Source: Haloferax marinisediminis (GTDB lineage Archaea; Halobacteriota; Halobacteria; Halobacteriales; Haloferacaceae). Taken from it: 64,000 bases of DNA. Below, piece by piece: positions 1 through 25,442 of this stretch. Below the pieces are notes generated by a model. That model was not told the DNA's origin and did not search any database. It worked only from the letters and a program-made list of their open reading frames with translations. Position numbers and translations under genes: made by a program. The number at the start of each line of letters is the position of its first letter. Positions within the stretch are counted from its first letter, which is position 1. The stretch spans positions 1 to 64,000 of the forward strand of contig NZ_WKJP01000006.1 in the NCBI RefSeq assembly GCF_009674585.1, given 5' to 3'.

Positions 1-2145
1 ATGACATCTGAACTCACTGACGACGAACTAATCGGCAGAATCGAGGGCATCAAGCAACACATGCAGTTGCTCGAAGAGCTCGGATTCGAGTTTCTCACAC
101 TACCGAACGTATTCGAGGTAGACCCCGTTGCAGAAGAACCATTCATCCTCTCAAATTCGTTCATTCCAGAGCAAATTGGTGGCTCAGTCAGAGTAATCGA
201 ACGTGGTGACGAGGAGGATGGAAGCATCCAAGAACCGCTGGAAGTCGAGAACCTCAACCATATGCTCCGGAGTTTTCTTCCGGGTGGCTTCCAGAAACGC
301 TGGAAAGCGTTTGACCTCTGGCAAGGTGACTGGGATTTCAATCCCGATAACCCGGGTAGCGCCGATATTTCTCCGATGTTCGAGTTCAAAATGAAATACC
401 CGCTTAGCGACATCCTCGGAGATGACATCGACGAGTACACACTCCTAGACCACGATGTCGACGACGTCGTCGTGTACATCCCGCAATCGATGTACGTCAA
501 GCGGCTTTCTCGAGACACTCAGTATTACTGGAGTGTTGACTATCAGACGATTTTCGCCGCAAAGAGCCCGTTCGGTCGGCATTTACCGCTCGGTCGGAGT
601 GACCCGACGACCAACTATCTGTGGTTCCGGCATCTGAAGAGTGACATATCGGCACCGCAAGAACCACTCCCCGACGGGAACGACCTACTCGTCTCACACG
701 CCTACGAAGATGAAGTCGAATTCATCCGGTGTTACTACACGTCTCTTTTGACGCTGTACGAAAAGAGGAACAACAACACGCTCTCGCGAACCATTGACTA
801 CGTCAACACCGAAGACGAAAAACGAGCGTTCGTCGCCAGCAACGAGCGAAGCCAGTTGCTCTTATTCAATATCGACCGCCAGACGGTGCGACAGCGCGTG
901 AAGGCAGTCCTTGATGAGCATCCAGCACTACGACGCGATCTCCAGTTCTCGCTCGCACACCGACTTGTCTGGGACAAACTGTTCTTCGAGGAGGGTGCCT
1001 TAGAGAACGTCTTCCAAGTAGAGCCGTTTATCAACCACCTCATCGGGGTTGATTTTCGTTGTCGAACGACCGAACTCGCTGCGTCGGTCTTTGACGCTGA
1101 CACCGAGACGATTATCGAACAACTCCGTGCACTCCTCGAACCCGGAAAGGGTCTCGAACAGGGGCCACTGTGTCTGATGGGATACGACCCCGCACCACAG
1201 TCCGCGATGATTGACGTTGTCGACTCACATGAGGAGGTCGTTCACGGTATTCTCTCAGAATGCGCCGACGAGGAGACGCTCCTTGACTTTGCAGAAGAAG
1301 TATTCGTCCACTCTGTCGAACACGGATTAGCAACGTGGGCAACAGATGAGACCTCCGCTGGTGGGTCGTTCGAGTTGTGGTACGACACGAACTTCCAAGG
1401 ACGGTCCGACGACCACGCACGCCTTGGTATCTACGACTCGATTCAAGGCGGTGCAGGCATCGCAGATGAAGTACACGACCACATCAACGATAGCCCAAAT
1501 ATCGACCTCGACACTGGTGTCGGCAAGCAGGCGGCCTGTCACACTGCTGCAGCAGATCAGACTGTGCTCGAAGTCCTCACCGAAGCGAGCGGTGACGTGC
1601 TCTACGACCTCTTTCACGAGTCGACACGGGCCGAATTTGATACGGACACAAACGAACAGAATGAAGGCGAGGACGGCGAACCGACAGGATTCCAAGCGCA
1701 GATTACTGCGATTCGTGACCAGGTCATCGACGACGAAGGTATGTACAACTTGAACGACCTCACGTCACACATCGAAAACCGGATTCAGGCCCTGTTCGAG
1801 ACACGAGAAACTGCGCGGTTCTACGCGTACGTCGCCGCCGAATACGCAATTGTCGAAGACCAATTAGAACGCACCCCCCGGGCAGTCGATATCTTGCTCC
1901 ATCTAGACCACCACATCTTCCGTGACCCACGCGTTAGAGAGACCTACCGACGGTTTGCTGAGGACGATAAGGGGCGTGACCTCTCAGAGCTCGGCGAGCG
2001 CTTAGAGGAACTCACCCACCAGTGTGTCACTGCTTGTCCAGACTGTATCGAAGCAGAGGAACCGAACTGTGTTCACGGGATGAAGTACCAAGCACAGTTG
2101 CTCAACCGACGACTTCTCAAGGAGGTCTCTTCATATGCTGCATAA
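1..2145 (+). CDS. DUF1998-type protein, probably 5'-truncated by the window edge
   Basis: The C-terminal third matches the pattern of DUF1998, the domain of DrmB and of Hrq1/YprA-type helicases. There is a histidine in HSVEHGL near residue 437, a YDSIQGGAG loop near 478-486 and a terminal cysteine pair in CVTACPDC near 677-684. The first 430 residues show no helicase motif and I do not recognise them. The frame is open from base 1, which happens to be an ATG, so this may be a complete protein of 714 residues or the tail of a larger helicase. The next gene starts inside its last codons with an 11-base overlap, so the two are translationally coupled. In DISARM-like systems DUF1998 proteins work with a superfamily 2 helicase. 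A defence role is inferred from that and from the neighbours. Confidence 0.7.
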   Translation: MTSELTDDELIGRIEGIKQHMQLLEELGFEFLTLPNVFEVDPVAEEPFILSNSFIPEQIGGSVRVIERGDEEDGSIQEPLEVENLNHMLRSFLPGGFQKRWKAFDLWQGDWDFNPDNPGSADISPMFEFKMKYPLSDILGDDIDEYTLLDHDVDDVVVYIPQSMYVKRLSRDTQYYWSVDYQTIFAAKSPFGRHLPLGRSDPTTNYLWFRHLKSDISAPQEPLPDGNDLLVSHAYEDEVEFIRCYYTSLLTLYEKRNNNTLSRTIDYVNTEDEKRAFVASNERSQLLLFNIDRQTVRQRVKAVLDEHPALRRDLQFSLAHRLVWDKLFFEEGALENVFQVEPFINHLIGVDFRCRTTELAASVFDADTETIIEQLRALLEPGKGLEQGPLCLMGYDPAPQSAMIDVVDSHEEVVHGILSECADEETLLDFAEEVFVHSVEHGLATWATDETSAGGSFELWYDTNFQGRSDDHARLGIYDSIQGGAGIADEVHDHINDSPNIDLDTGVGKQAACHTAAADQTVLEVLTEASGDVLYDLFHESTRAEFDTDTNEQNEGEDGEPTGFQAQITAIRDQVIDDEGMYNLNDLTSHIENRIQALFETRETARFYAYVAAEYAIVEDQLERTPRAVDILLHLDHHIFRDPRVRETYRRFAEDDKGRDLSELGERLEELTHQCVTACPDCIEAEEPNCVHGMKYQAQLLNRRLLKEVSSYAA

Positions 2146-5100
2146 TTTAGCGAAAATCACAGACGAATATGCACGATTCGGTGGAAACGAAGTCACTGTC
2201 AAATGCCGCGTTATCGGAAGCCCGAAACGAGGGGAAACTGGCGGTGAGAAAGTGATGTACGAGGTCGCAGACCCGAGTGGGAACCTCGAGTTGCCGACGA
2301 TGCTGTCGTTCTGGCTTGAAGAACCAACCGAAGATGGGTTCACCGACCTCTCGAAAACGGATTCAGCTGTCCTCGATGCGTTGTCGACAGGGAAAAATAA
2401 TGTTCCACACCTTCGACGCGGGGAGACAGTCCTCGTTCGGGGTATCCCGAGACTGACGTCGAAAAACGGCCAACGGCTCTTCATCAACGTCACTTCAGTC
2501 CTCATCCGAGAGCCGGACATCCAGATCGGGAAAAGTGAGATTCGGACACAGGAATCCTGTCCGCGAGAGTATTACCTTCGGTACGTCAAGAAGACCTACC
2601 ACAACAAATCGCTGAACAAGAACTCTTTCCGTGGAACAGCAGTTCACCTCGTCACTGAGCATGCAGTTGATGGCCATTCAGAGAAGTTTGCAGCAAACGC
2701 TTGGACCGAAGACGAGGCGGTTGCGTTCGCCGACGAAATAATCGAAGAACACCTGAGTATCGAACAAGCGAAAATTGGGCTTGCTGGGATTAAACTCAAG
2801 GAAATCAAAGAGCAGATCGAAGAGATTGCCGCTCGACTGTTCACGTCCGAGGCGTTCTGCGAACGCATTGCCAATGCGACAAGAATACAGACCGAACACA
2901 GGCTTCCATCAGCATACGGTTATAACGGGTTTGTCGACATTATCCTAGACGACGTCCCATACGACCTGAAGACGACGCGAAAACTCTTCGAATCGAAACA
3001 GGATAAACACAAACAGCAACTAAAATTGTACCTGTTCGCTCTTCTCTTGGAGCAACTCGAAGTCGGAGAACAAATCGAAGAAAGACTCGAAACGGGCCAA
3101 ACGGGCTACCTCGTTTATCCGAACCTTGAAGACTCTGAGACGGTGTCGATAGAACAAGTCACCCTCGAGCTTGAAGACGTGGCAACGTTGCTTGCGGCAC
3201 GAAACGAGGTCGCAGATTCTCGTGATACGTTTGGCCCTCCGTCACCGTACAACCGAGACTGCGATGGGTGTGAATTCAAGCACGGATACACTCATGCTTC
3301 GACCGGAGAGACGCTCTCACCCGCATGTACCTTCTACTGTCAAGACGAGCGTCGATGGCCGTGCTATGAGCTTAGTCCGTCGGGTGCTGTTGAGACAGAG
3401 TGCTCTCGATTCGACGACTGTGGCCAACGACTGGCGTACCGCGATACCGACGTCACAGATCACTATAACGCCCTCCGGAGCGCTCTCCAACAAGAGCGAG
3501 AGACACGGCAAACTGCCGGGGAACTCCTATCGAGCGTCGATGAGGATGCCCTCGCTCGAACTGGGCGGGTCGTCACAGGACTCTCACTCTCTGGTGCAAG
3601 TCAGGATACAATTGTCTACAATCGCGATTCTGCTGTCGTCTCTGCATTCACGCCAGGCGACATCGTCAGAATCGAACCCGAGAGCGACGGACGCACTGGC
3701 CGGTACGTCCCCTACCTTGGACGACGAGATGGTGGGTTTGTTTTCGGATTCGAAGACCTTGACCCAGTGTTCATGGACCCAACCGAGACGTACCGAGTGT
3801 GGTACGGGTTCGATGCAGAGACCGTGACTCGAAAGTACCTCCCGTATCTCGACTACGCACAGCGGACCGGCGCAAAGCCTGGCTTCGAGTACGAGGAACG
3901 CAATGAACTCGCAGGCGAAATCGAACTGAATGACTCTGCTGACATCGTTGACCACCTCGACAGCGACGAGGTGTTTGTCGACCTCCCGGCACGGCGCGAC
4001 CGAACTGCCTTACTCGCCGAAACGGTGTCCTCGCTCGCCACTGCAGCGTATCCACATCCGGAAAAAGAAGACGAAGTGGTCCCCGAAGCAGGGCGACGTG
4101 CACTCATCTTAGGAACGTCACCAAAAGAAGTGGAAATCGCTCATCGAGCGACACCAGATGGCCCGAACTACCGCTTCGATGACTTTTCGACTGGCTCAGA
4201 CACCATCCACGCCGGTCTCCGTCGAGCGGAAATTCAAAAACGTCTACTCGAGTCGCGAACACTCGTGTCGTCACTCCAGTATGCAGTTCGGACTGGCACG
4301 TTCCACGACCTCGCAGAAGGTGGCTACGGTGACCGAGACCACTCGAAGAGGTTCTTCGACGTCGTCGTCATCCTCGGGGCTGAACAGGTGACAGAGCCTG
4401 TGTATCTGTACCTACGCGATGTTGCCGACCGGGTCGTCACTGTCGGGGACAAGCGGGCACACGGCCCGAAAATGGTCAGTTCTGAGGCTCGTGAGCACGG
4501 CCTCAATCGGTCGTACTTCGAGGGAGCATATGAGCGATACGCATCGATACCCGCAGATGGGGCCACGAGTCTCCAGTTCGATGGGGAAGGAAATGCGTTC
4601 ATCCGTGAACTCTTCAGAGACGATCCATTCGAGAAACTAGACTCGACGCTCTCGTTTTTGGGTATCTCTGGCGGAGAATCCACTGATGCGAGCGAGATAA
4701 CACTCAATGCATCTGTCCGTGTACGACGTGGTTCCGGTGCCCCACAGAAACTCGTCTTCGACATTAGCCACACGAGTGCAAACCCGTTCGAGATTCAACA
4801 GACGTTTATTGACAGAGAATACCTCGATGCCACCAATCTCCCCAGCCCAGAAGGATCAGTTCTGCTCGACGGCACGCCACTGTATCTGACGTCGAAAGAA
4901 CCTCTTGAGGGTGATATGCAATCGGACAGCCACCGCATCGTCATCCATGCAGATGCCGACACAATTCCTGCATTCTCGAAGACGTTCCTGTACAACCGTA
5001 TCGAGGCACGAATTGTCGCACAAGTCGCCGACGACTACGACCCAGACTACATCGTCACGCCATTCGAAGCACACGCAAATGAACTGGCGTTCCGACTTGA

Positions 5101-5353
5101 AGAACAAGGACTCGACATACCTGTCAAACTCGCTCAGGAACTTGACGGCGATATCGCAGACCGGGCAATTGTCAGTTTCGCAGTTGCGAACGATGCAGGC
5201 ATTCTTCACCCACCGCTGACCGACCCAGAGACGCTCTATGCGCTCTTTTCGGCGGCAGAGGACATCCTAATCGTTGGTCACAACCAGACGCTTAAATCGA
5301 AAGATGCGCTAAAGAAGTTGGTTACTGAACAGGCGGAAAAGTACGAACCCTAA
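2135..5353 (+). CDS. Dna2-like iron-sulfur PD-(D/E)XK nuclease with degenerate SF1 helicase half
   Basis: The first 130 residues look like an OB-fold. A RecB/Cas4-family nuclease core follows, with GFVDIILDD and YDLKTTR at about residues 265-283. One cysteine lies before the core (ESCPREYYL) and a cluster lies after it (about 374-415), the layout of the 4Fe-4S cluster of Dna2, AddB and Cas4. The C-terminal half has the layout of a Dna2/Upf1 superfamily 1 helicase. However, the Walker A position reads DLPARRDRTALL (about 616) and the Walker B position reads VVVILGAEQ (about 743), so neither GxxGxGKT nor DEAS/DEAQ is present. It is probably an active nuclease with a non-ATPase helicase-like scaffold. 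It overlaps the DUF1998 gene and ends convergent to the 1829-residue helicase. Confidence 0.75.
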   Translation: MLHNLAKITDEYARFGGNEVTVKCRVIGSPKRGETGGEKVMYEVADPSGNLELPTMLSFWLEEPTEDGFTDLSKTDSAVLDALSTGKNNVPHLRRGETVLVRGIPRLTSKNGQRLFINVTSVLIREPDIQIGKSEIRTQESCPREYYLRYVKKTYHNKSLNKNSFRGTAVHLVTEHAVDGHSEKFAANAWTEDEAVAFADEIIEEHLSIEQAKIGLAGIKLKEIKEQIEEIAARLFTSEAFCERIANATRIQTEHRLPSAYGYNGFVDIILDDVPYDLKTTRKLFESKQDKHKQQLKLYLFALLLEQLEVGEQIEERLETGQTGYLVYPNLEDSETVSIEQVTLELEDVATLLAARNEVADSRDTFGPPSPYNRDCDGCEFKHGYTHASTGETLSPACTFYCQDERRWPCYELSPSGAVETECSRFDDCGQRLAYRDTDVTDHYNALRSALQQERETRQTAGELLSSVDEDALARTGRVVTGLSLSGASQDTIVYNRDSAVVSAFTPGDIVRIEPESDGRTGRYVPYLGRRDGGFVFGFEDLDPVFMDPTETYRVWYGFDAETVTRKYLPYLDYAQRTGAKPGFEYEERNELAGEIELNDSADIVDHLDSDEVFVDLPARRDRTALLAETVSSLATAAYPHPEKEDEVVPEAGRRALILGTSPKEVEIAHRATPDGPNYRFDDFSTGSDTIHAGLRRAEIQKRLLESRTLVSSLQYAVRTGTFHDLAEGGYGDRDHSKRFFDVVVILGAEQVTEPVYLYLRDVADRVVTVGDKRAHGPKMVSSEAREHGLNRSYFEGAYERYASIPADGATSLQFDGEGNAFIRELFRDDPFEKLDSTLSFLGISGGESTDASEITLNASVRVRRGSGAPQKLVFDISHTSANPFEIQQTFIDREYLDATNLPSPEGSVLLDGTPLYLTSKEPLEGDMQSDSHRIVIHADADTIPAFSKTFLYNRIEARIVAQVADDYDPDYIVTPFEAHANELAFRLEEQGLDIPVKLAQELDGDIADRAIVSFAVANDAGILHPPLTDPETLYALFSAAEDILIVGHNQTLKSKDALKKLVTEQAEKYEP

Positions 5354-5424
5354 GTTCAGGGTTTGGAACTCAGGACAACCAACTCGATTGTCTATTAAAG
5401 CAAAAAAGTCGAACTAGTTCGCGG

Positions 5425-8400
5425 TTAGTTGCTGGAATCGGCCGCGAGTGTGACCCCGTGATCGAGCAGTGCAGAGACGTCGTTGCGAGCAAGCGTTTGT
5501 GGGTCGTTGTAGGTGTCACACCCGTACTGGAAGACACAGAGCGGACACCCACTGTCACACTTGCACTGGAAGTGCTCTTCGATGAGGTCGATTGCTTCTT
5601 CGAAATTCCTGAATTCGTCGTCATCTGCTTCGACGAGGAGTCGGGTGATTTGTGCACCACCTTCCTGTGAGTCGAACAGATACATCGTCTCGTCGTCGAT
5701 ACTCTCGCCGAGTTCGCGCACATCGACCCCACCGAGGTACTGGAGTGCAACACGGAATCCGTGGACGAGTGCGTGTGTTGCTTCGCCTTCATCGTCGTCA
5801 AGGCGAACCCGCAGGCCATAGGTGTTATATCCGTATCCGAGTCGGACGAACTCAGACGGCGCTTCGTAGTCATCAGGGTGGTGGTCCGGGTCTGCGGTAC
5901 ACCGGCCACTGTGGTCTTCGGGGTCACGTTTGATGACGCCGTCACAACTCTCGTGACCACATCGTTCGAAGAGCGTCTCACGCGAGTCGATGCTCCCGCT
6001 TCTGTACTTGACTCGATAGCTCTCGGCGTGGACGAGGACGTCCAGTTCCCCGTATTCGACAGTGCCGACTCGATTTCCACTCTCGTCTTCGAGTTCAAAC
6101 TCGTCGACGGTATCGAACGAGAGGACTGTCGTGTCGCGGTCAGTGAACGTCGCTTGAATGCCTGCATCCGGGTCTGCGTAAAGTTCACGTGCGCGGAACG
6201 AATCACCAACAGACGACGAGAGGTCTTCTCGATACGCCGTTACCGAATCGAGAACGGCGAGCCGACGTGGTTTCAATGGCACATCGGCATCGCACGAACA
6301 GGTCTCTGCGTCCAAGGGATACGCCGAGTGACATGCTGGGCAGACCAACTCTTCGGCGAGTTGGTCGTGTCCCGCTGTTTCGTCGACGACCGACCGAACC
6401 GATTCAGAGGAGAACTGGTCGTACTTCGCACGGGCAACCACGTATGTTTGATTCTCGTGGAGATACGCAGCACCAGGATGGAACTCTTTGATGGCCATTC
6501 GCATTTCACGGCCATTGTTATCGCCGAGTTGCTCTCTGGCATAATCCTCTTTAACCAGTGTTGTTTCGACGGTCGACGAAATCGAACGCATGTTGAACGC
6601 GAACTTACTCTGTCGCGACGTCCGGAGGAACTCACTGTACTTTTGCTGACGAATCGAGTCGAGGTGGTCGTCGATGACCGACTCTTGTGCTCGAATCCGG
6701 TTTACTTCGTCTAAGAGTCGAGTTGCTTCGTCATCGTCTCGTGACCGCTTCCTCTCGCGCTGGAGCGACCGTCGCCGCTCGTACAACTCGTCTTGTGCTT
6801 CGAACAACTCGTCGGTGTAGTTGAAGAAGTGATAGACATAGTGGTCTGCGAACTCTTCGACTGCGGCCTCTATGAGGTCGTCGTATTTTGTTGCAGCGTA
6901 CTGGATTCGACCGGAGCAATCTTCTGCTGTACACCGTGTCTCGTCTACATCGGCGTCGTACTTTTCGCCGCAGAGCTCACAGTAGCGATAATCGAGCAGT
7001 GAAGAGAGATACGTCTCGATGTCATCGGCGTAATCGTGGACAATTTCATCTAACACCTGTACTTTCGACCGGCGCGTGTCGAGTTGGAGTACTTCGTTCG
7101 TCTGTGCCCGAACTGCGGTGAATTTCGCACAGCCTTCGAGGTCTGCGTCGGACGGTTGGTGGACGAAACTGTCGCCACCTTTGATTGTTGTTCGGTTCCC
7201 TTTTCGTTTCAACTCCCACGGGATTGCGAAGTTCGCGGCGATGTAATCGAAGATGGCCCACGAAAGCGACACGCGGAGGACCTCCTCGTTGTGTTCGTTG
7301 AGTGGGACGTCTTTTGACGAGGTGTGGATCAGGTCGACAGGGTTCTCGTAGTAGTAGTAGTCGATTGGGTTGCGTTTGCTGATGCTGTGGACCAGTGCAG
7401 ACTTCGATTGGCGGCCTGCACGACCGACCCGCTGGAGATAGGCGTTCATGTTCGGTGGCGTTCCGAACAGCAACAGCGAGTCGAGTCCACCTATGTCGAC
7501 CCCGACTTCCATCGTGGGACCTGATGAGAGGAAGTGTGGATGTTTGCCCTCTTTGAACAGGTACTCGATATTCCGTCGTTTTTGCTTATCTGTTAATCCA
7601 AGATATTCCTCTGCCCACAGCAACATGGCCGCCGCATACGTTGCTCTGTACGCGCGATAGGTGAACCGTGGGTGTTCAGGATCTGCAAGTTCGTTCAGTG
7701 ATGTGTCGAGTGTGACGGACTTGGCAGACTGCAGACTGAACATGTGTTCGAGAGAGGAGTATGTCTCTTCCCGTTGTGGGTCGTACCACAGGTTGTCTCC
7801 GTTGCCTGCGACGGTTACTTCGAGTGCAGTCGGCGACAGTGAGACCCAGCCACCGTCTTCGTCGTGTTCCAGCACACCACCATTGACTAGCCCCTGGAGC
7901 ACTGGTGTCGGGTTGTTTACCCCAGAGTTCTCACGGAGGGCGTCGATGTGGAGGCTGTTTCCACCGGCAAGTTGGCGGACGATCGACCGCTCGTCTGCAT
8001 CCAAGTCGATTCTTGGGTCAAGACGAACGTCGATGACACCAACTTTAGAGAGTGGGTCATCGTGCTCACTGAACCGTTTGCTATACCGGTGTGGAAGCAC
8101 TCGTCGGAGAAGACGGTCTTTGACTGCTTCTTCTGGGTCCCACCTGTACCGTGGACCTCCTTTCAACTTCTCCAAGATGTTCACAGAGCCTTCGGTGACG
8201 TCGGATGTCGTCGAGAGTTGTGCCTGAAACTCTGCGAGTTGGGTGAAGCTTTGGTCGAAGACGTCTTCGAGCGAGACCCAACCGTCGCTCTCGAGCATAC
8301 TGGTGACGATCACTTGATCGAGTACGGTCTCGACTTCAGGGTCGTCGAAGTCGCGTCGAAGGCGCTTCATGTCTTGATGGGAGTCAGAAAACGAGAGCAT

Positions 8401-10914
8401 CTTTGAAGACTCGAAGCCCTCATCCTCAGCAACACTCCGAAGGAGGTACTGCGCCGTGGTGACTGCTAAGTTATCGTAACTGTAGGTAAGCTCGTCATAT
8501 CGGCTTCGACGATAGCTCGTTCCTGAGTGGTAACACGGCACGCCAGTCTGAAAGTCCGTGGGACTCCGAAGTCCACCGTTTGCATCGAACATACCGTAGG
8601 TATCGACATCGACGGTCCGGGATACGAGCTCGGGATTACCACACCCACACTCAAACCCGGTAACGACTTCAGACTCACAATTTTGACACACTCGCCGGTG
8701 TGTGAGTTCAAACAGACCCGCCCGAGCGAACGTCCGTGACCCGCACTCACACTTGTCTGGTGGAGTTTGGGTGAAGTATGTCCGACTACACTTCTTGTCC
8801 TTCTTCCGGCAAACCCACGGGAGGTAGTGCGTATTCACGACGCGTTTGCCGCAGTCACAGTCGACGATGGTATCTTCGCTGTGGTGTGTCTCACTGCAAT
8901 CGGGACATGAGACTGTTTCACCGGACAGTTTTGGCTCCAGTTCATCCGAGCCACAGACATCACATCCATACGACACGGGATACTCTTTTTCGCACGCTGG
9001 GTTGACACAGACCGCGGTCTCAGCACTGACTCGGGCAGTCGGTGAGTCACAACTGTCACAGGTCGTTGTGGTTTTCCGCTTGCCGACATACCCACAGTCG
9101 TTACATTCGAGCCATGGACGGAACGTCACACGCAACGAATCGACCTCCTTTCCGCCAACAGCACACCGCTGACACGTGTGCTCGTCTTCGCGGCGACCAC
9201 CGTGTTCTGTCGGGGTGTACGGGTCTAGTTGGTCGCACTCGGGACAGTACCACGCGACGAGTGATTCCTCGTCGCAATGCCGGCAGTATGTTGCCCGTGT
9301 AACGAAGTCGTATCCACACTCGCCACACGATCCGCGCGGCGACCGATACACCGCATCGCATCGACCACACGAATAGAACCCGTCGAGTGGCCATGAAAAG
9401 AGGTGTGTGCGATTTTCGAGCAGCCCAGAAAATTCACCGATCGTCCTGACGTTGGCAAGCGTTTGTTCTGCTTGTGTGTCTGTGAGATCGAACGTCGAAG
9501 TAAGCTCTGCAAGTAACTGTTCACGGGTTTGGGGTTTCTCACGAAGGACTCCGTGAACGTATTGAATCGCTTGGACTGCGGCCGAAGACGGCTCTGGTGT
9601 GGTCACGAATTCGAACACCTGTTCGCGAACAGCCTCTGCGACCTCGTTCCGACTGAGCTCTTCGTGTCCGTCAACGACGAACGCCCTGTCGGCAAGTGCT
9701 GGCGGAGTCACACTCTGGTCGCGACCCATCTGGATGAGCGACTCTTCATCGATTTGGACGTTCGAGAGAACCTCGGGCATCGAATCGGGGCGTATCGGGT
9801 CTAACGTCCGTGGATTCTCGTCGACGTGTGTAATATCCGAGGTGCCTGCGACTTTTCGGAAGAGTTCGTTGTGGTTGTTGACGGTTGCGGAACTCGCGAC
9901 CACCTGTAGGTTATCGTCGCCAAACCGTTCTCGACGAAGCGCCCTGAGGCGCTTGACTAGCATCGATGTGTAACTTCCGAACAGTCCTGTGTAGGTGTGA
10001 ACCTCGTCGAACACGAGGAAGTCTGGTTCGTAAATGAACGCGTCTTGTTCGCTGGTCGCGTTGACGTTCATCGCCCGGAAATTGATGATGTCCGGGTTCG
10101 TGAGGATGATGTCGACGTGTTCTTCGAGGACGTCGTTTTTGGTGAGGTGGATGAAGTCGAGCGGAACATCCGACTCACACTGTTGCTTGGTTGGCTTGAC
10201 GGTAAACCGGCCAGAGTCAGGAGTAACCCGGAGGTTCTTGCTACAGCCTCGGCACTTCGCCAGTTCCTCGTTGTAGCCAGGACACTCAAAGAACTTAAAC
10301 GAAGACCGGAGATAGCCTTCAGCCCCACCTTCGCCTTTGTGTGTAGGGGTGTCGCCGTCGTAGATCCCGACGGTGATGCGCTTTCGCTTCGGCAACTCAC
10401 CGTTTATTCTGTACAAATATTCGATGAGGCGCTTGAGCTGGTCTTGGGCGAGTGCCTTTGTCGGATAGACGAGCAACGCTTTGACGCTCTGTGGGTCACA
10501 TCCCTCGATTTCTCCTTCCTTCGCACGAAGAATATAATCTAGGATGGGGAGAAGCCACGCCTCAGTCTTCCCTCGACCAGTCGCTGCGGTAACGAGGGTA
10601 TCGTCACCGTCAGCAACAGCCTTGACTGCTCGCTCTTGGAAATCGTACAGGCGCTTGAACCCCAGTGACGAAAAGGCATGTCGAACCCGCGGGTGGAGTC
10701 TGGCCTCGTTTGAGAACTCTTCCCACGGTTGATCGCTCCAATTCGGGATATCGAGTGCTTGCATGAACGGGCCACGTGACCCGACAAACGTCTCGTCTGT
10801 TTCCGTGTTCTGGAACCGGTGATAGACGTTCCGAGCGGCCTTGCCTTTGTTCCCGATGATGTACGACTCGTATGCCGATTTGACTTCCTCGGCGCGTTTG
10901 GCTGGATCTTTCAT
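5425..10914 (-). CDS. Large SF2 helicase with zinc-ribbon array and C-terminal DUF1998
   Basis: This is an ATP-dependent DNA helicase or translocase of 1829 residues. RecA-like domain 1 has AATGRGKT (residues 110-117), a DEVH box in LVFDEVHTY (about 325) and SSAT. RecA-like domain 2 has [10 protein letters not shown] and QRVGRAGR (about 1131-1170). Between them, residues about 510-760 hold a long run of CxxC pairs, which suggests several tandem zinc ribbons. More pairs follow after domain 2. The C-terminus has the DUF1998 signature, with cysteines in [10 protein letters not shown]. The order helicase plus DUF1998 resembles DrmA and DrmB joined in one chain, or an Hrq1/YprA-type helicase enlarged by zinc modules. 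The ATG overlaps the stop of the upstream gene (ATGA), so it is the last gene of a coupled operon. Confidence 0.85.
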
Positions 10915-11687: not shown

Positions 11688-11688
11688 G

Positions 11689-14600
11689 TTAGATACCTCC
11701 AAGGGTATTCATCACAGAACTGCGCTTCGTCTGGAAAGTCGTAAACTCACTTGACTCGCGAACGAGCGAATTGAACTCGTTCTTGTCAGCGCCATCGATT
11801 TGCTCGATAGCAGTCAGCATTTCATCGAGCGTTTCGTAAACCGTCCAGGCTTTCTGTGTTGCCCGACTCTCGTTGTACTGATGCATGAGCGTCATTACTT
11901 CGAGACCGTTGTCTGGATCGATGTCATCGAAGGTCCGTAGTGTCTGCCCGAACTCGTTGAGTTTGAGCGACCCTGGACGTTCCTCTAACATCTCACCGAC
12001 TTTTTCCCACCGCTCTTTAAGATTCAACTCAGTGGGACCGATACTGTCACACAGGCGGTCGTACATATTTTTCAGGTCTGCCGGTGTGTGGTCCATACTG
12101 TACAGTGGTCTGACCGTATCGATGTCTTTCTTGATTACGCCGGAATCGAACGAGACCTCTAGTTTCTGCATTTCATTTGCGTACTCTGAGACACTCGTCA
12201 TGAGAGTCTCTGCTCGGACTGTCGCACCACTTCTGGTCGTACCGACTCGGTAACCATCAGGCAAGTCGCTCGCAGATATTTGGGCTGCTGCATCCAGATA
12301 ACCGTCCAAATCATTCGAGACCGCTCGTATTGCTGGAGCGAGTCGTTCGTCATCGACAACGTTCTTTTTGAGTAGGAAGTAGCCTCTGGACAACTGAGCG
12401 ATGTCTGTCCGCCTCATCGACATGTTGTTGAAGCCTTCTATGAGGGACTTCGAGAGGTCGAACGTAGACTGGTCCCACTTGAACGGAGAGTGATCCGGCG
12501 TACTGAACTCATCGGGGTCACTGAACAGTAACTCGCGGGTAATTTCGTCTACCCCTTGGGCACTATTGAACAGTAGGAAGCGAGCAAGGACGATGAACTC
12601 CTCAATGGTCATTCCGGGCAGACACGCTTCGATGTCGTCTCGCATCTGTTTTCGAAGTCCAACGACCTTGTCGTCGGTCCACGCTCGGATTGCTTCGAAG
12701 TTCGTCTCTTCAGGGAACTCCTCATCGAGTCCATAGCGCATCATGTTCAAAAGCATCCGCTCGTAACCCGCATGCCCCTCCGGTTTGTGGGTGACAGTGA
12801 TGCCGATGTTCTTTTTTGCGTCTGCTCCGCGAATCTCGACTGGGACATCGCTGCCCGTTGCATAGTAGAATCCCGCAGCTTTCTCCGCTGTCGAATTCTC
12901 GTTTGCAAGTCGAGTTGGGTCGTGGAACCGATTGAGTGCAGTCTGTACACCTTCTCGGAGTCGGTTTGCACTCGGGAAGTCACCGCCGCCACCGTACCAA
13001 CTCTGGAACTGTGCGATACGTTCTCCGTTTCCAGATTTCGGTTGCTCCGGAGGTTCTGGTGGGTCTTCCGGAGGGTCTTCCGGTGGGTCTTCCGGTGGGT
13101 CTTCCGGTGGGTCTTCTGGTGGGTCTTCCGGTGGGTCTTCTGGTGGGTCTTCCGGTGGGTCAAGAGAGACTGGTTTGAGCTCAGAATCGTGAACCGTCCA
13201 TTGCGGTGTCGGGTAGAGGACAGAGAACTGGACTTCGTCGTCTGTGACCGTAGCACTGTCCGGAATCCCGACATCGAAGGTTTCGAAATACGTTCGCGGA
13301 ACGACGACCAGCTTATCGTCCTCAGGCGACACCTGACCGTACCACTTTACCAATCGTTGTGCCTCGTAACTGAGGCCCTCTGAAGAGATCGGCGTCGCGA
13401 AATCGCGGATGTAGGTATTTCCGTCAATCTGTTCATGTGGTGGGACGTCTGAACGGAGACAATCCCCAATAACGTGGTACAACAGCAGTCTTGGTGTCTG
13501 CTGTATCTTTCCGTCTTCCTCAAGGTGTTTGTACGCCCGCATGACGAAGCGTTTGTTGAACGGGTAGAGATCTTCGAAGGCACCGACGTCGACGTCGGTT
13601 TCGATATCCGAGCGTTCGTTAATGACCTGCAGGTAGTTTTCGACGAGTTGGACGGGCATCGCCCCTTCTTCGAGGAAATATGCCTCGCCATCGTCGTTGG
13701 TGAGTCGGAGATACCCATCTGCACGTTGAATCATGTGCGACAGGCCGCCGGCAGTCAATGCGTCGTCTGCATTTTCACTTTCCCACCCGGTCGTGTATCC
13801 GAGAACGACGTCGAACCCGCTCGTCAGTTCTTCACCACCGTCTCCTAATTGGAAAATGGTGTCCATGAAGTCGTCTTTCAGGAAGTTGAAGGTGGTAACG
13901 TCCTCACAGATGAGGACTGGACGAACACCATTCTCCTGGTACTTGTTGGCAATCTCGAGGAGTTCCCCTCGGAAGTCTTCGATGCCGATATTCTTCTGGA
14001 GACGACTGTGGATGGCGTTTCGAACTGCCGAGTAGACATCCTCTGCGTACGATGCGTCCCCAAAGACGTTGAAACAAAGCTTCTTGAACTCCTTTTTTGT
14101 CAGGAGGTCGATTCGCTGTTCTTTGCTTTCCTGTACGACCGCATCTTGATACTCGCGGATATTAGCGGTAAGAACACCGCGTAAGTCACTCTTGTTCGAG
14201 TTGTCCTCGAGGAATTTTTTGAGGTCGAAGTCGCTGAACTTCTTTGCGTCGAACGTTCTCAGGCCGGCAATAATGAAGTCTGCAAGGTCTTCAGGATCGA
14301 GTGTAACGACGTCGTCGAGTGGTTCTCGATCTTCGTCGAGGTGCTCGTAGAGTTTGTCGAGAATACCGCTAATACGGGTATTGTTTCTCGAGATGTGAAT
14401 TGCGACGTGGTTTTCGGCACCTGGTGCTTTTTCACCACCACGGCCGTTAATCCGGTATTCGAGCCACTGGCAGAGGTGGCTTTTCCCACTCCCGACCTCC
14501 CCTTTCAGCATGTAGATTTTGTTTTCATGGCTCGAAGGGGCCGAGTTCGAAAGAATGTATTCGAGAAGCTCCTCGTCAGAGATGAAGTCGTTAGCGTATC

Positions 14601-14736
14601 CAACGAGAGTCTCTGCTCTAATCTTCTGAATTGGGATGTGTGTCTCGAGGAAGACTTCGGGTGTCTTCTGTTGGGACTCTTGTTTAATGTACTCGTTGAC
14701 GACGTCGAGAGACCAGGTTTTAGGGAATGTACTCAT
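11689..14736 (-). CDS. P-loop ATPase with DPPE-repeat linker
   Basis: This 1015-residue protein has an N-terminal ATPase module. Walker A is GEVGSGKS (residues 79-86) and a Walker B-like strand is PVLICEDVTTF (about 268). The sequence FDVVLGYTTGW soon after resembles a sensor strand. The style recalls the large ATPases of defence loci such as BrxC/PglY or DptF, but I cannot assign a family. A linker of nine perfect DPPE units splits the ATPase part (about 1-525) from a helical C-terminal part of about 440 residues. It overlaps the 299-residue gene by four bases (ATGA) upstream and lies two bases from the coiled-coil gene downstream. It probably couples sensing of nucleic acid or protein to the helicase encoded at the end of the operon; that is inference. 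Confidence 0.75.
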   Translation of the reverse strand: MSTFPKTWSLDVVNEYIKQESQQKTPEVFLETHIPIQKIRAETLVGYANDFISDEELLEYILSNSAPSSHENKIYMLKGEVGSGKSHLCQWLEYRINGRGGEKAPGAENHVAIHISRNNTRISGILDKLYEHLDEDREPLDDVVTLDPEDLADFIIAGLRTFDAKKFSDFDLKKFLEDNSNKSDLRGVLTANIREYQDAVVQESKEQRIDLLTKKEFKKLCFNVFGDASYAEDVYSAVRNAIHSRLQKNIGIEDFRGELLEIANKYQENGVRPVLICEDVTTFNFLKDDFMDTIFQLGDGGEELTSGFDVVLGYTTGWESENADDALTAGGLSHMIQRADGYLRLTNDDGEAYFLEEGAMPVQLVENYLQVINERSDIETDVDVGAFEDLYPFNKRFVMRAYKHLEEDGKIQQTPRLLLYHVIGDCLRSDVPPHEQIDGNTYIRDFATPISSEGLSYEAQRLVKWYGQVSPEDDKLVVVPRTYFETFDVGIPDSATVTDDEVQFSVLYPTPQWTVHDSELKPVSLDPPEDPPEDPPEDPPEDPPEDPPEDPPEDPPEDPPEPPEQPKSGNGERIAQFQSWYGGGGDFPSANRLREGVQTALNRFHDPTRLANENSTAEKAAGFYYATGSDVPVEIRGADAKKNIGITVTHKPEGHAGYERMLLNMMRYGLDEEFPEETNFEAIRAWTDDKVVGLRKQMRDDIEACLPGMTIEEFIVLARFLLFNSAQGVDEITRELLFSDPDEFSTPDHSPFKWDQSTFDLSKSLIEGFNNMSMRRTDIAQLSRGYFLLKKNVVDDERLAPAIRAVSNDLDGYLDAAAQISASDLPDGYRVGTTRSGATVRAETLMTSVSEYANEMQKLEVSFDSGVIKKDIDTVRPLYSMDHTPADLKNMYDRLCDSIGPTELNLKERWEKVGEMLEERPGSLKLNEFGQTLRTFDDIDPDNGLEVMTLMHQYNESRATQKAWTVYETLDEMLTAIEQIDGADKNEFNSLVRESSEFTTFQTKRSSVMNTLGGI
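11695..11700 (-). promoter_or_regulatory. Shine-Dalgarno site of the coiled-coil gene
   Basis: GGAGGT on the minus strand, seven bases before the ATG at 11687 and inside the last codons of the ATPase gene. It decides the start codon and shows that this internal operon gene is initiated by ribosome binding rather than as a leaderless transcript. Confidence 0.75.
13054..13161 (-). repeat. Nine tandem 12-bp units encoding DPPE
   Basis: Nine in-frame copies of a 12-base unit encode Asp-Pro-Pro-Glu, followed by one PPE. The copies differ only at third codon positions. The run is highly negative and should be an extended, stiff polyproline-like spacer between the two halves of the ATPase. Tandem units of this kind can change number by slippage. 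Confidence 0.9.
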
Positions 14737-15632
14737 GTTCGAAGCCTCCGCTCGTTACGGTCGAGCGGGTACCAGTATGCGGGTCGGTCAGGAAGCGATT
14801 CGACAGTGTAGGTTGCTACGTTTCGTGGGGCGCCGTTTGACCGCGGAAGTGACGCAACAATTCCGGCATCCGACATCGTCTGGAGCGAAATGGCACCTTC
14901 CATTTCGATGTCGTTGAGCACGTCTGCGACGCCCGCAGCAAGCTTTGGAACACCAGGCCGGTCAGCAAACACCGGCATGAACTCCTCGTCGATCCACTTC
15001 AGCGCACGTGCGAAACGTTTGGAGTCTTCACCGTTCTCGGCGTACCACGCTAGCAGCTCGTACATGAGTGCTCGCGTCGGGGAAGCGATGATTTCGTTTT
15101 CATCGAGATCGGTCGCATCGTTGACGTAGGAAATCGCTCCGAGCGGATCGAATAGGTTTGCCCACATTCGTATTTTTTCACCCCGCCACGTCAGGTCGAA
15201 CGACCGATCAGAATCTGCTTTCACCGCTTCGAGTAGATTCTCCTCAGTAACCCGGCGACAATTTTGTTTAGCAAGTACGTCGAAAATATAGGTCAGATGA
15301 TACTGTTTACCGGGCTGTTTCCGAACATGGTGTAGGACACGTGCCTCGAACGAGAGGGAGGAGTACACGTCTTCGTTCGAGAGTGACACGACGTTTTGGG
15401 CGGATACATCGACCATGTCTATCGCACGTAAAAATTTCAGCGACTGGTCGATATGTTCGGTTTCGTAGCCGCTCGTCATCGGGCGGCCAAATCGTTTCTC
15501 TAACGTCGAAACAGGGACTTCACCCTGTGACTCGAGTGTTTTGTAAATCGCCTTTAATTCGGCCCCTCTAACAGTACTGTACCCTGTTAGTAGGGCACTC
15601 GGTTTGTCGTTGTTGTGTTTGAAATCAGTCAT
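14733..15632 (-). CDS. Unknown 299-residue protein of the helicase operon, winged-helix-like N-terminus
   Basis: The start at 15632 gives MTDFKHNNDK and overlaps the preceding stop by eight bases; the longer open frame to 15908 lies inside the upstream gene and is rejected. Residues about 15-75 (GAELKAIYKTL, then PVSTLEKRFGR) read like a helix-turn-helix, followed by another helical segment that could be a second winged helix. The stop overlaps the ATPase start by four bases. A role as DNA-binding or partner-recognition subunit is possible. DUF4007-like proteins of phosphorothioate loci have a similar length, but I cannot show homology by eye. Confidence 0.65.
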   Translation of the reverse strand: MTDFKHNNDKPSALLTGYSTVRGAELKAIYKTLESQGEVPVSTLEKRFGRPMTSGYETEHIDQSLKFLRAIDMVDVSAQNVVSLSNEDVYSSLSFEARVLHHVRKQPGKQYHLTYIFDVLAKQNCRRVTEENLLEAVKADSDRSFDLTWRGEKIRMWANLFDPLGAISYVNDATDLDENEIIASPTRALMYELLAWYAENGEDSKRFARALKWIDEEFMPVFADRPGVPKLAAGVADVLNDIEMEGAISLQTMSDAGIVASLPRSNGAPRNVATYTVESLPDRPAYWYPLDRNERRLRT

Positions 15633-16470
15633 TATCGTAAAGTGCTGCGTTCCGCTCTCGTTGCTTGTCGAGTTCTTCAACGTCGAAATCACACTGTACG
15701 AGCATTGCGTCCATCTCATTTGCAATCTTTTGGACGTAATCCCGTTCAAGCCACGAACGAAGCGTCTCGCGCATCCGCTCGGTGTACTTGGTGAGGACGT
15801 TTTCGAGGTCGTGTTCGACGAAGTAGTACAGTGGTTCCCAGACGCGACTGTCTGGTGGCGCTTGTTGATAATCGAACAGCGCCGGAAGAGTATCTGCGGG
15901 TGCTCCAACTGACCGGTGATGGTCCGAAACCTCGTGGAAAAAGTAATTCCGTGTCTCGCTGAACGGGATCGCAGAATCGAGGTTCTTTCTCACATATTGC
16001 TCCAGTAGATTCGGATACTTGATCGTCGTAATTGGGCCAAATTCATCGTTTATCGGGCGTTGTTGGTCGTATGCCGGAGTCTTTGGGGCATTCGTGTCGG
16101 TGACGATGACGTAGATGTCGTTGTCACCTCGTGAACGTAGTATCTCACGCATCAGATGCTGTTCGCCCATACGTTCGATCCCGTTGTGGTCGATTGGATA
16201 ATCTGTCAACCCTGCGCTGCTGACAGTATGAACAACTGGATACGAAAGGTCTGCAGTGTTGAGTCCGTTTGGGTCAAGATGTTCGTAATCAACAATTTTG
16301 AAACCACTTTCCCACAATGGAGTGTGGAGAAATCTGCCGAACCCGAATTCTTCGAGAAGCGGAAGACTGCGCAACTGTGCCCGTTCTTCATGTGTGTGAT
16401 TCCCAACCTTTGGGTCTTTGATAACGACCAATTTTGGCCCGGATGTTTCAGATAAATTTGCCAGTCCCAT
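15625..16470 (-). CDS. Unknown 281-residue protein, first gene of the helicase operon
   Basis: I do not recognise this protein. It is a soluble, acidic protein with alternating hydrophobic strands in its first half (KLVVIKDPK, DIYVIVTDT) and a helical C-terminal 90 residues (YTERMRETLRSWLERDYVQKI). No catalytic motif is obvious. It is the promoter-proximal gene of the five-gene minus-strand operon and overlaps the next start by eight bases. The start ATG at 16470 is the first in frame, facing an AT-rich divergent promoter region. Confidence 0.65.
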   Translation of the reverse strand: MGLANLSETSGPKLVVIKDPKVGNHTHEERAQLRSLPLLEEFGFGRFLHTPLWESGFKIVDYEHLDPNGLNTADLSYPVVHTVSSAGLTDYPIDHNGIERMGEQHLMREILRSRGDNDIYVIVTDTNAPKTPAYDQQRPINDEFGPITTIKYPNLLEQYVRKNLDSAIPFSETRNYFFHEVSDHHRSVGAPADTLPALFDYQQAPPDSRVWEPLYYFVEHDLENVLTKYTERMRETLRSWLERDYVQKIANEMDAMLVQCDFDVEELDKQRERNAALYDND

Positions 16471-21346: not shown

Positions 21347-22186
21347 ATGGATTCTTGTTGGGTTGCGAAACAGGGAAAGAAGGGTACAATCACTGTCTCT
21401 CATCGGGATGACGCGTGGTATCTCACTAAGCCTCATGTCAAGTCTGAAGTGAAGTGTGTTGTACGAGGTATCGATGAACTATCACCCACAGATGTGTGTT
21501 GTGAACTTGAAGGGACTGTCTCGAAATATATGCGAAGTACGAACGGTGGTCCCGACTTTCTCTTTTTCGAAGTGGGTGACAAGACAGCGAAGGCACCAAC
21601 CACAGTGCAAAACTCCGACCCGCCACAACACTCGAAGTCGCAGGACACTAGCTCACGGCCAAGATATCCTAGACGCCGTATTACTGAACTCTCGGGTAGT
21701 GGAGAGTACGTCACAGTTGAGGCTGTTATCGACTCAATCAAATCGGTCAATAAAGATGACTCCAAGATGCCTGATATTATTGGCAAACTCCGTGACGAGA
21801 AGACTGGCCGGATTCGGACGTTCGTCGTGGCGAACAGTGTTCGACACCCCTATCTGAAAATCGGGACTCGCTTCAGGTTCACGGGGGTCAAGGACCATCA
21901 TTACGCAAAGTACGACCAAACACAGGTGTACATTACGAACCAGACAGAGTTCGAAAAACTCGGGGTTGAACAATCTGAGAAGTCGAAGAAGTCGACAAAG
22001 CCAAAGAGGTCGAAACAATCGGCAGGGTCCAAGAACCGCAGACTGAGGGCGATTGCTAAGTCAAGAATCGGAAACCGGGTGTTCACTGAGACAAACTCTG
22101 GCGACAAGTCCAGTATCGAGAAAGCGAAGCGAAAAGCCCGAAAACAAGGACGTGATCCCGCGATTGACCCAAGGTTGAAAAAATAG
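21347..22186 (+). CDS. OB-fold-like protein with basic tail, probable single-strand DNA binder
   Basis: This 279-residue protein has a beta-rich centre (YVTVEAVIDSIK, then RTFVVANS and RFRFTGVKDHHYAKY) that reads like an OB-fold of the kind found in replication protein A relatives. The last 70 residues are very rich in lysine and arginine, which is unusual in a halophile and suits nucleic-acid contact. The N-terminal segment may be another small beta domain. It lies between two helicase-nucleases on the same strand, 153 bases after one and 106 before the other. A role as the single-strand DNA partner of these enzymes is inferred. Confidence 0.6.
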   Translation: MDSCWVAKQGKKGTITVSHRDDAWYLTKPHVKSEVKCVVRGIDELSPTDVCCELEGTVSKYMRSTNGGPDFLFFEVGDKTAKAPTTVQNSDPPQHSKSQDTSSRPRYPRRRITELSGSGEYVTVEAVIDSIKSVNKDDSKMPDIIGKLRDEKTGRIRTFVVANSVRHPYLKIGTRFRFTGVKDHHYAKYDQTQVYITNQTEFEKLGVEQSEKSKKSTKPKRSKQSAGSKNRRLRAIAKSRIGNRVFTETNSGDKSSIEKAKRKARKQGRDPAIDPRLKK

Positions 22187-22292
22187 CTCACCCACGGTTC
22201 CTAGACTCCTCCCAACAATGTATTTAATTTTGAGATAGGGGCAATCTATAGTAGTTAATTATTTAACCGCTCCAACCTTATCAACAAGTCAC

Positions 22293-25200
22293 ATGATATC
22301 GCTTCCACTTTCTCTCGACGGTTTCCTCTCCCGTCTCGAGGACGCAAACAAAGAACGATTTGATGACGAAAACTGGTCGTTCAATGAGGGGCAACGGGCA
22401 GCAATCACCAGCGCAGATGGGCCGCTTTGCATCACTGCAGGCCCCGGCAGTGGAAAAACTGAGGTACTCATTTCTCGGGCATTGCGACTTCTCTTGGTCG
22501 ATGGAGTTGCGCCCAAATCGATTCTCATCACCACGTTCACCGAGAAGGCCGCACAGAATCTCGAAGAACGAATCGCTGACCGACTTTCGACGCTCGGGTT
22601 CGAAGACGAGGTCGACGCTAATGCACTCCGCATCGGAACGCTCCACTCGTTGTGTAACGACCTCATACAGGAGTACCGATATCCCGAGTATGCGAACGTC
22701 GAACTACTCGATGCAGATGGACAGCAGTTGTTCATGTACGACAACTGTGATTTCGTGGACTACGTTCGTGGCCGGGGATTAGACGTCGAAGAGTGGGAGA
22801 CGATTTCGGAGGAAGAACTGAGCGGAGACGAGTGGCGGTTCTTCAAACCCATGCTGGGTTGGGGAATCAGCGACCAGTATGGCCCGAACAAGTGGCAGGC
22901 CACGTCTGGTGCAGCGACCTTGCTTGATCGCGTCTCACAGTACAGAGTAGACACAGCAGCGATGCAATCTCAAGCACCCGATCAGTGGAAAGCCTGTGCT
23001 GAGGGGCTCGAAAAGTACCGAAAGACGCTCAAAGACAACAGTCGGTGTGACTTCTCTCGGTTGCTGGAAATCTTTATCGAGTTCATCGGAAGCGAAAGCG
23101 GGCGGCGACTTGTCGACGGCGATGAAGAGCGCAATCGTCCACCACTCACGCACGTCCTCGTCGACGAATATCAGGATACAAATCCGCTTCAACAAGAACT
23201 CTACTTCCGACTTGCAGAGGAACTCGACCAACCGAACATCACCGTAGTTGGTGATGACGACCAGGCTCTTTACCGGTTCCGTGGTGGGACGGTCGAGTGT
23301 CTGATACAGTTCCCAACGCGTGCCGCTGAACGCTTCGATACAAGCGTCGAGACCGTCCAACTTCGACACAACTACCGCTCGACGAAGGATGTCGTGGACT
23401 GGTGCAACCGATACCTCGACGACTACCCGCTCATGCAAGTGCCAGGAGCCCGCGCCCCTGACAAAGACTCGATGTTAGTCGGTAGAGATGACACAGCAGG
23501 GCGGCCGAGCGTCAAAGCACTCTTAGAGGGGAGCAGTGACAGTGTGGCAGCTGAAAAAGCAGCGGAACTCGTTGAGCAACTGTACGAACGAGACTACATC
23601 ACAGACTACAGCCAAGTCGCGTTCCTGTTCAAGAGCACGAAAGAGACTCCCAAAAATGCAGGCCCGTACGTTGCTGCACTGCGTGAGCGAGGGATTCCTG
23701 TGTACAATCCCCGAAACAAAGCCTTCTTGAAACAGACCGAAATCAAGTTCGCACTCGGTGCACTCCTTCACTGTATCGACCCCGGCCTCGACGGTGCAGA
23801 GACAATCAACATTCGTGGTCGAACCCGGACACAACTAAACACCTGGTACGACAGTTATGAAGAGTTCGTGGACGAATTCGATGCGGGTGAACTGGCTGCG
23901 TACGTCGAAACGCGACGTGAAGCACTCGAGGACGCTGAAGGTGGCGACTCGTTAGGATTGACTCTCTTGGACCTGTTCTATCGGGTTCTTTCTTTCGAAC
24001 CCTTCCAGACGTGGATTGAGAGCCCAGATTACCCAGCACCGGGGAACCGCCTAGGACAACTCTCCAATCTCTTCGATTCGTTCATGAGTGTGTCGGGTGC
24101 ACACAGATTATCCAAGTCGACGCGGAGTGAAACTGTCTCCACACGATTTCTCAGACAGTTCTACTGGCAGTTCTGTGGGTACTTGGAAGCAAGCGACTTT
24201 GACGAACCAGAAGACCCCTACAACCAGATCCCAGAGGGATTCGTGCAGGTTATGACGGTCCACCAGGCGAAGGGTCTCGAGTTCCCAGTCGTGTTCACGA
24301 GCGACCTCGACAGCGAGCCGTGGATGTCCGGTACGTACTGGATTGAAGAACAGGTTCGACCCTACGCCTCAATCAACCCTTCAGGGACAGAAACGGAACG
24401 CGCAGAACGCGACGAGCTTCGCCGGTTCTTCGTCGCCTACTCCCGTGCGGAAGAAGACCTAATACTCCTCGATAACGAAGGCGCACCGACCACGCTTTCG
24501 CTGGGCTATTCGGAGGACAATGACGAACTTACTACCGAGTGGTTCGATGACGAACGGCGAGTTCGAACCCCGGATGACTTTTTCGAGACCGCCCAGGAAT
24601 CAGTTGGTTCACACAATTCGACGACGCTGAAGCGCCGTTACAGCATTACGGGCGACGTACTCGCGTACAGGCGATGTAAACGGCAGTACGGTTACTACAA
24701 CGAGATGAGTTTCGTCCCCGACCACGCGACGCAACTGTTCTTCGGTCGCGTCGTCCACGAAACGCTCGACCGGGCTCACCGACATTACAGCGGTGAAATC
24801 GACGGTGTATCTGCCGGAACAATCCCTAGCGATGGTGACATCGAGACTTACTTCCGCGAAGTTGCCTCGTCGTTGAAAGCCCAGAACATTCGACCAATGA
24901 GCCAAAAAGCCGAGGAGACGGCCCTCAAGTACATCCAACGGTTCAATCGGCGTGAAGGGGCTGACCTGTACCCGCGTGTCGTCGATACGGAACACCACCT
25001 CCAGAGTAACCGTGGTGAGTTCGTCCTCGAAGGCATCGTCGACGTCCTCTTGGGAGACGAAGACGGCCGTGAAATTTGGGACTACAAGGCCGGAAGTCGA
25101 CCGGATTCCGATAAAGAACTCGACGACTACCGCGCACAACTTAACACGTATGCCGAACTCTACGCGTACCAACGAGGTGAGTACCCAGACCGTGGAGTCA

Positions 25201-25442
25201 TCTACTTTGTTGGTGAAGATAGTCGAGACGACGCTATGTTTGAATTGTCGTTCTCGACCGGGGAAGTCGAAGACGCACTTACTGCGTTCGACGAGACGGT
25301 TCGAGATATCGAACAATCTCGAAGCACTCGAGATTGGTTCGGCATCTCACAGATGGAGGCGCCATCTGAAGGTACGTGTACCGAATGTGACATTCGTTGG
25401 AATTGTCCTGCGAGGCCACAGTTCAAGAGGAATCTAAACTAA
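22293..25442 (+). CDS. UvrD/RecB-like SF1A helicase with C-terminal Fe-S nuclease
   Basis: This protein has 1049 residues. The superfamily 1A helicase motifs are complete: AGPGSGKT (about 49-56), DEYQDTN (about 290), GDDDQALYRFRGG, HNYRST, VHQAKGLEFP (about 655) and AYSRAEEDL. The C-terminal part is a PD-(D/E)XK nuclease with EGIVDVLLGD and IWDYKAGSR (about 912-935). Cysteines lie before it (RRCKRQYGYY, about 795) and at the end (CTECDIRWNC, about 1028), again the 4Fe-4S arrangement. The order is like AddA/RecB or the single-chain PcrA-Cas4 fusions of archaea. It is the last gene of the plus-strand run and likely degrades or resects duplex DNA. Confidence 0.85.
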   Translation: MISLPLSLDGFLSRLEDANKERFDDENWSFNEGQRAAITSADGPLCITAGPGSGKTEVLISRALRLLLVDGVAPKSILITTFTEKAAQNLEERIADRLSTLGFEDEVDANALRIGTLHSLCNDLIQEYRYPEYANVELLDADGQQLFMYDNCDFVDYVRGRGLDVEEWETISEEELSGDEWRFFKPMLGWGISDQYGPNKWQATSGAATLLDRVSQYRVDTAAMQSQAPDQWKACAEGLEKYRKTLKDNSRCDFSRLLEIFIEFIGSESGRRLVDGDEERNRPPLTHVLVDEYQDTNPLQQELYFRLAEELDQPNITVVGDDDQALYRFRGGTVECLIQFPTRAAERFDTSVETVQLRHNYRSTKDVVDWCNRYLDDYPLMQVPGARAPDKDSMLVGRDDTAGRPSVKALLEGSSDSVAAEKAAELVEQLYERDYITDYSQVAFLFKSTKETPKNAGPYVAALRERGIPVYNPRNKAFLKQTEIKFALGALLHCIDPGLDGAETINIRGRTRTQLNTWYDSYEEFVDEFDAGELAAYVETRREALEDAEGGDSLGLTLLDLFYRVLSFEPFQTWIESPDYPAPGNRLGQLSNLFDSFMSVSGAHRLSKSTRSETVSTRFLRQFYWQFCGYLEASDFDEPEDPYNQIPEGFVQVMTVHQAKGLEFPVVFTSDLDSEPWMSGTYWIEEQVRPYASINPSGTETERAERDELRRFFVAYSRAEEDLILLDNEGAPTTLSLGYSEDNDELTTEWFDDERRVRTPDDFFETAQESVGSHNSTTLKRRYSITGDVLAYRRCKRQYGYYNEMSFVPDHATQLFFGRVVHETLDRAHRHYSGEIDGVSAGTIPSDGDIETYFREVASSLKAQNIRPMSQKAEETALKYIQRFNRREGADLYPRVVDTEHHLQSNRGEFVLEGIVDVLLGDEDGREIWDYKAGSRPDSDKELDDYRAQLNTYAELYAYQRGEYPDRGVIYFVGEDSRDDAMFELSFSTGEVEDALTAFDETVRDIEQSRSTRDWFGISQMEAPSEGTCTECDIRWNCPARPQFKRNLN

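Follow-up and report, generated by a model that had tools for sequence, protein, structure and literature searches.

A Dpd-related restriction locus with a divided DpdJ-like helicase on a haloarchaeal contig, probably the restriction half of a BRIGADE Type I system

The window analysed here, a stretch of 64,000 nucleotides, makes up the leading half of the 128,755-bp contig C6 from the genome of the haloarchaeon Haloferax marinisediminis. A first-pass annotation had described positions 1-25442 as a ten-gene helicase-nuclease array. All ten open reading frames were found at the places given, with overlapping starts and stops, but as a unit the array had to be revised: genes C and D lie outside the conserved set, and the array is severed by the contig end. 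Genes encoding a 355-aa and a 911-aa protein are located at C6:124960-128755 and run on into gene A714 at base 1. When the contig end was joined to the window start, the stop of 911 overlapped the start of A714 by four bases, with the 355-aa gene preceding 911. As 911 thus reads across the contig ends into A714, the contig is apparently a circle opened at window base 1, which explains why the window holds a DUF1998 protein lacking its helicase: the helicase lies at the other end. In the following, F-G-H-I-J is termed arm 1, 355-911-A-B arm 2 and a locus carrying both a hybrid; G and L numbers denote genomes and loci.

The 911-aa protein, a DEAD helicase encoded from C6:126024 into window base 4, showed DpdJ as its best family match (1e-53, 180 bits, versus 7e-17, 59 bits for DrmA), and in the profile comparison 690 columns aligned with the first half of DpdJ (E 6e-68). 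Its relatives comprise 903-913 aa. The partner A714 (1..2145, plus strand) aligned with DpdJ residues 822-1263 (hhalign, 93.5%, E 2e-7); it matched MZB weakly and carries a DUF1998/MZB-type cysteine cluster with a CPDC motif close to the C-terminus, in agreement with its earlier description as a DUF1998 protein. A714 adjoins 911 and B in hybrids as well as in five loci devoid of H. As judged from these profile alignments, 911 and A714 are a DpdJ divided into two genes, with A714 as the predicted OB/DUF1998 half of this YprA helicase. The neighbouring B1072 (2135..5353, plus strand) is a Cas4/Dna2-like PD-(D/E)xK nuclease (PDDEXK_1, 8e-16; Cas4, 2.5e-8) with intact nuclease residues (D..DLK), a cysteine cluster and a fused SF1 domain. 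This SF1 part contains neither Walker A nor a DEAQ box and is thus a degenerate helicase, so that among the three nuclease-SF1 helicase fusions annotated originally only E1049 and C1464 have an intact helicase. B1072 is the probable effector nuclease of arm 2. The 355-aa protein did not match the product of the 385-aa gene found in loci carrying arm 2 only.

Arm 1 is encoded on the minus strand. H1015 (11689..14736) is a DpdH-like ATPase, as supported by a match to NCBIfam DpdH (2.5e-24) and by hhalign alignment to DpdH (E 2e-32); with GEVGSGKS as its P-loop, it is indeed the P-loop ATPase noticed at first reading. G (14733..15632) is DpdG-like (hhalign, 94.4%, E 9e-8), its start being placed at about 15632 (299 aa) rather than 15908. 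A structural model of middling confidence and a fold search suggest two winged-helix domains for G; the OB-fold protein that had been listed was not found. J1829 (5425..10914) contains all SF2 helicase motifs and a C-terminal DUF1998-type cysteine cluster (CPLC), as had been described for this 1829-residue SF2 helicase, and motif inspection revealed no fused nuclease. In a helicase tree, J and the second helicase of related loci, J2, grouped with ARMADA and Druantia, and 911 with DpdJ, each with support of 1.0; J1829 is accordingly an ARMADA-side member of the YprA family (scores of 150 to DruE and 98 to DrmA).

The small members of arm 1 were more difficult to assign. I (10911..11687, minus strand) is rich in coiled coils and lies between H and J; its start, inferred from sequence, is probably 11687, within an open reading frame extending to 11702. 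Although its position matches that of DpdI, the profile comparison reached only E 0.03, and I was not accepted as a homologue. F (15625..16470, minus strand), the first gene of arm 1, was seen in 29 loci on gene maps around H carriers, with 27 invariant alignment columns, and a GTDB scan of one genome per species detected it in 18 loci, all of Halobacteria. No fold was assigned to F, as its model is of low confidence (pLDDT 68) and the best Foldseek hit had E 0.02; a Rossmann-like fold was likewise not assigned, the best VIA score (Z 8.1) lying inside that tool's warning range. The F profile matched no solved structure, and profile comparison yielded no Dpd counterpart for either F or I.

The remaining three genes are located on the plus strand. 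E1049 (22293..25442) combines a UvrD helicase with an Fe-S PD-(D/E)xK nuclease, and C1464 (16799..21193) a PD-(D/E)xK nuclease with an AAA_11/12 SF1 helicase. Among 292 Halobacteria genomes surveyed, E was present in nine, eight of which carry H (p=4e-8); in the ninth, E stands beside a related F-G-H-I-J arm. E is therefore regarded as an optional accessory of H-type arms. C was found in 26 of the 292 genomes and was linked neither to DpdA (p=0.22) nor to H (p=0.11), for which reason it was ruled out as a system part and judged a passenger defence gene. D279 (21347..22186), an orphan reading frame between C and E, showed no convincing family match and no relative in any locus examined; it was likewise excluded and is classed as passenger or unknown. 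Further along the window, an operon on the minus strand of this plasmid-like contig (36979-44953) encodes a HerA-like ATPase, a 332-aa protein, a NurA nuclease, a Rad50-like ATPase and a Mre11-like phosphoesterase. In another minus-strand block (25804-31375), a PLD-helicase whose best matches are PLD_Helicase and PbeA is accompanied by a 229-aa protein and a MORC/MzaB-like ATPase; a MutH-like nuclease and a C5 methylase adjoin this block.

No methyltransferase had been seen inside the array; the modification enzymes are instead those of a 7-deazaguanine cassette elsewhere on the contig, at 75.6-84.4 kb of C6, beyond the window and about 40-50 kb from the arms. Genes for QueD, QueE, FolE and QueC (75.6-78.2 kb) are followed by those for a BrxD-like ATPase, a 298-aa protein, a TgtA-like second TGT and DpdA (81.5-84.4 kb). 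DpdA scored 285 bits, summed over pieces, against a curated cut-off of 200. It appears to be fused to a DpdC-like domain, the DUF6884/DpdC-like C-terminus having been scored in a close relative (L072:4991-7885). No match to DpdB (DGQHR) was obtained among the proteins beside DpdA. The chromosome has its own TGT and QueC besides. The 298-aa protein (L034:15467-16363, equivalent to C6:79467-80363) is strongly conserved; searches of Pfam, PADLOC and NCBIfam gave no family for it. A GmrSD-type gene directly adjoins DpdA (G000:C6:84748-87414), and on two further haloarchaeal plasmids (L116 and L117) the surroundings of the DpdA cassette likewise include annotated DUF262 proteins. GmrSD is a type of nuclease that attacks modified DNA.

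Searching the 292 genomes with H1015 identified 30 clear carriers, and the gene order F-G-H-I-J was conserved in about 29 loci. DpdA was present in 28 of the 30 carriers compared to 9 of the 262 other genomes (Fisher test, p=5e-29), and in 29 of 30 after G121 was checked by hand; in this genome DpdA matches in two pieces about 560 bp apart (L103, about 9928-13401). The only H carrier without DpdA, G003, is missing J as well. B occurs in 11 of the 292 genomes, six with and five without H; it is associated with DpdA (p=3e-9), which accompanies it in all 11 after the correction for G121. A further related arm, observed at L201 (G104) and L197-L198 (G278), combines a single helicase of about 1,600 aa with genes resembling F, G, H and I.

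The first-pass annotation had treated the two blocks as one system, and they do co-occur: 911-A-B stands beside F-J in six loci, namely the present one and those of G030, G121, G223, G234 and G258, the stretch of G258 beginning inside A so that 911 lies outside the sequence covered. A second copy of 355-911-A-B is located beside QueC-QueD genes in G030 (L104, G030:C7:120000-138000). More than half of the H loci carry J2 together with a 658-aa PLD protein, mostly also with a Csa3/CARF-type regulator upstream. In the five genomes having arm 2 without H, arm 2 is always accompanied by a P-loop protein, X1131, and by X233; the N-terminus of X1131 resembles DpdH (86%, E 5e-6). Both were absent from the stretches around the six hybrids. 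As arm 2 has a DpdH-like ATPase of its own when alone and none beside arm 1, this pattern of presence and absence suggests that H is common to both arms.

The claim that the block matches no known defence system can no longer be maintained. Dpd families account for 911 with A714, G and H, while J falls on the ARMADA side of the YprA tree and the whole corresponds to BRIGADE; a clean mapping to a named system, which would have spoken against a novel array, was thus largely obtained. According to the available portions of the 2025 preprint by Bell et al. (PMC12458937), BRIGADE Type I pairs an ARMADA-like YprA helicase with one from the Dpd branch, next to a 7-deazaguanine cluster and to a nuclease that is PLD or occasionally PD-(D/E)xK, and is confined to halophilic archaea. 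Here, J represents the ARMADA-like helicase, 911 the Dpd-branch helicase, and QueD, QueE, FolE, QueC, DpdA and TGT2 the synthesis and insertion cluster; B1072 and E1049 provide PD-(D/E)xK nucleases in place of PLD. Eight of the ten genes are therefore members of a Dpd-related restriction system fitting BRIGADE Type I. Relative to the type as described in those portions, the Dpd-branch helicase is split, and the cassette lies at a distance on the same contig. The preprint text, as far as available, gives tests for ARMADA, and we found no experimental test of BRIGADE reported in it.

The locus shares the F-G-H-I-J core and the DpdA cassette with BRIGADE Type II, but J2, the 658-aa PLD protein and the usual Csa3/CARF-type regulator of that type are not found at this locus, and its own genome contains no second ARMADA-like helicase, the other matches being 911 and, weakly, one chromosomal helicase. 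Likeness to the bacterial Dpd system (dpdA-K) extends to DpdA, the preQ0 genes, ATPase H, a YprA helicase and gene order, as bacterial loci read dpdG-dpdH-hypothetical-dpdJ, the same order as G-H-I-J. In contrast to Dpd, DpdJ is not a single chain here and J, F and B are additional; DpdB, DpdD and DpdF were not found among the proteins scanned. As in DISARM, a YprA-type helicase and a DUF1998 protein are encoded by separate adjacent genes, but 911 is DpdJ rather than DrmA and the 7-deazaguanine cassette takes the place of the methyltransferase; family scans of 1-25442 detected neither DrmC (PLD) nor a DISARM methyltransferase. Unlike ARMADA and Druantia, on whose side of the YprA tree it falls, J lacks a fused C-terminal nuclease and is not adjoined by BrxHII and PglX or by DruH-type partners. 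Family scans gave no support for an identity of the block as DISARM, Pbe, BREX or Dnd. The initial proposal, in which several DNA-processing engines serve a defence system of haloarchaea, agrees with our results, its relation to DISARM being a distant one through the YprA helicase family.

Gene content, homology, co-occurrence, the shared contig and phylogeny together make it probable that this locus encodes the restriction side of BRIGADE Type I, in which haloarchaea combine Dpd-related modification and restriction; the system most likely restricts DNA devoid of 7-deazaguanine. What we infer is the identity of the base, the rule by which self is told from non-self, the assembly of a complex and the use of one ATPase by both arms. 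preQ0 would be made by QueD, QueE, FolE and QueC, and DpdA with its C-terminal DpdC-like domain, aided by the second TGT and partners, would place a 7-deazaguanine, probably ADG, in the DNA of the host. Viral or plasmid DNA entering the cell would not carry this mark. A surveillance complex built from winged-helix G, ATPase H and the small proteins F and I may then load J and the split DpdJ as two YprA translocases, which would track along unmodified DNA and pass it to the nucleases B and, where present, E for degradation, with H serving both arms. Such restriction is in line with bacterial dpd clusters, described as restriction-modification systems in which ADG is inserted and unmodified DNA is kept from replicating (PMC6884629).

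How tightly the two arms are coupled can be judged from their distribution. They might form one machine, in which J and the split DpdJ both depend on one ATPase complex of the DpdH type (F-G-H-I) for loading, and PLD, B and E are interchangeable nucleases; we consider this a tentative reading, about which we are more doubtful than confident. Arm 2 and the J2-PLD pair were never found together in the loci read (chance about 0.001, G030 left out), as if the one replaced the other, and this, like the lack of X1131 and X233 from the stretches covered around hybrids, argues against two arms that are independent of each other. Such independent arms, each restricting unmodified DNA, sharing only the mark and adjacent since both need the DpdA cassette, are nevertheless a serious possibility to which we assign somewhat less than an even chance. 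Most H-positive genomes have arm 1 without arm 2, and five genomes have arm 2 without H. Moreover, the J1 helicases from Type I genomes do not form a single clade, that of G030 grouping with the one of G264, which indicates that arms are exchanged.

Two further explanations question the link between the arms and the mark itself. It is unlikely that the arms act in a type IV-like manner against foreign hypermodified guanine, with the DpdA cassette serving another purpose. In the halovirus HVTV-1 about 30% of G is present as dPreQ1, and DpdA of its host Haloarcula vallismortis, encoded on AOLQ01000002, was named as a possible source of its modified bases (PMC6884629). The host has this system, since AOLQ01000002 of strain ATCC 29715 is our locus L162, a Type II relative containing the F-J module, and the GmrSD gene adjoining DpdA on the present contig would also suit an attack on modified DNA. 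Yet HVTV-1 grows on Haloarcula vallismortis, so the modified virus is not excluded by its host, and for Dpd relatives the reported target is unmodified DNA (PMC6884629). An ordinary defence island of unrelated, functionally uncoupled plasmid-borne genes is very improbable: C and D fit it, as do the PLD helicase, the C5 methylases with MutH, the HerA-NurA-Rad50-Mre11-type operon and GmrSD, but for F-J, 911-A-B and E it is disfavoured by the co-occurrence statistics, the overlapping genes and the order F-G-H-I-J kept in so many loci, which equals that of bacterial dpdG-H-I-J.

Restriction of DNA without 7-deazaguanine by a BRIGADE Type I system thus remains the preferred reading. The BRIGADE class has already been named in the 2025 preprint; apparently new here, compared with the available portions of that text, is the way in which its components are divided, shared and exchanged among genomes. 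Comparison of the locus with its relatives separates the genes that accompany the DNA mark from those that do not, the pattern being an F-G-H-I-J core, exchangeable effector arms and a stable split-DpdJ lineage. Haloarcula vallismortis ATCC 29715, which carries a Type II relative, offers together with HVTV-1 a ready model for the rules of self and non-self; relatives of the system are also present in the genetically tractable Haloferax gibbonsii and Haloferax alexandrinus. If both arms do belong to one machine, a single epigenetic mark would license several routes of DNA destruction in these archaea.
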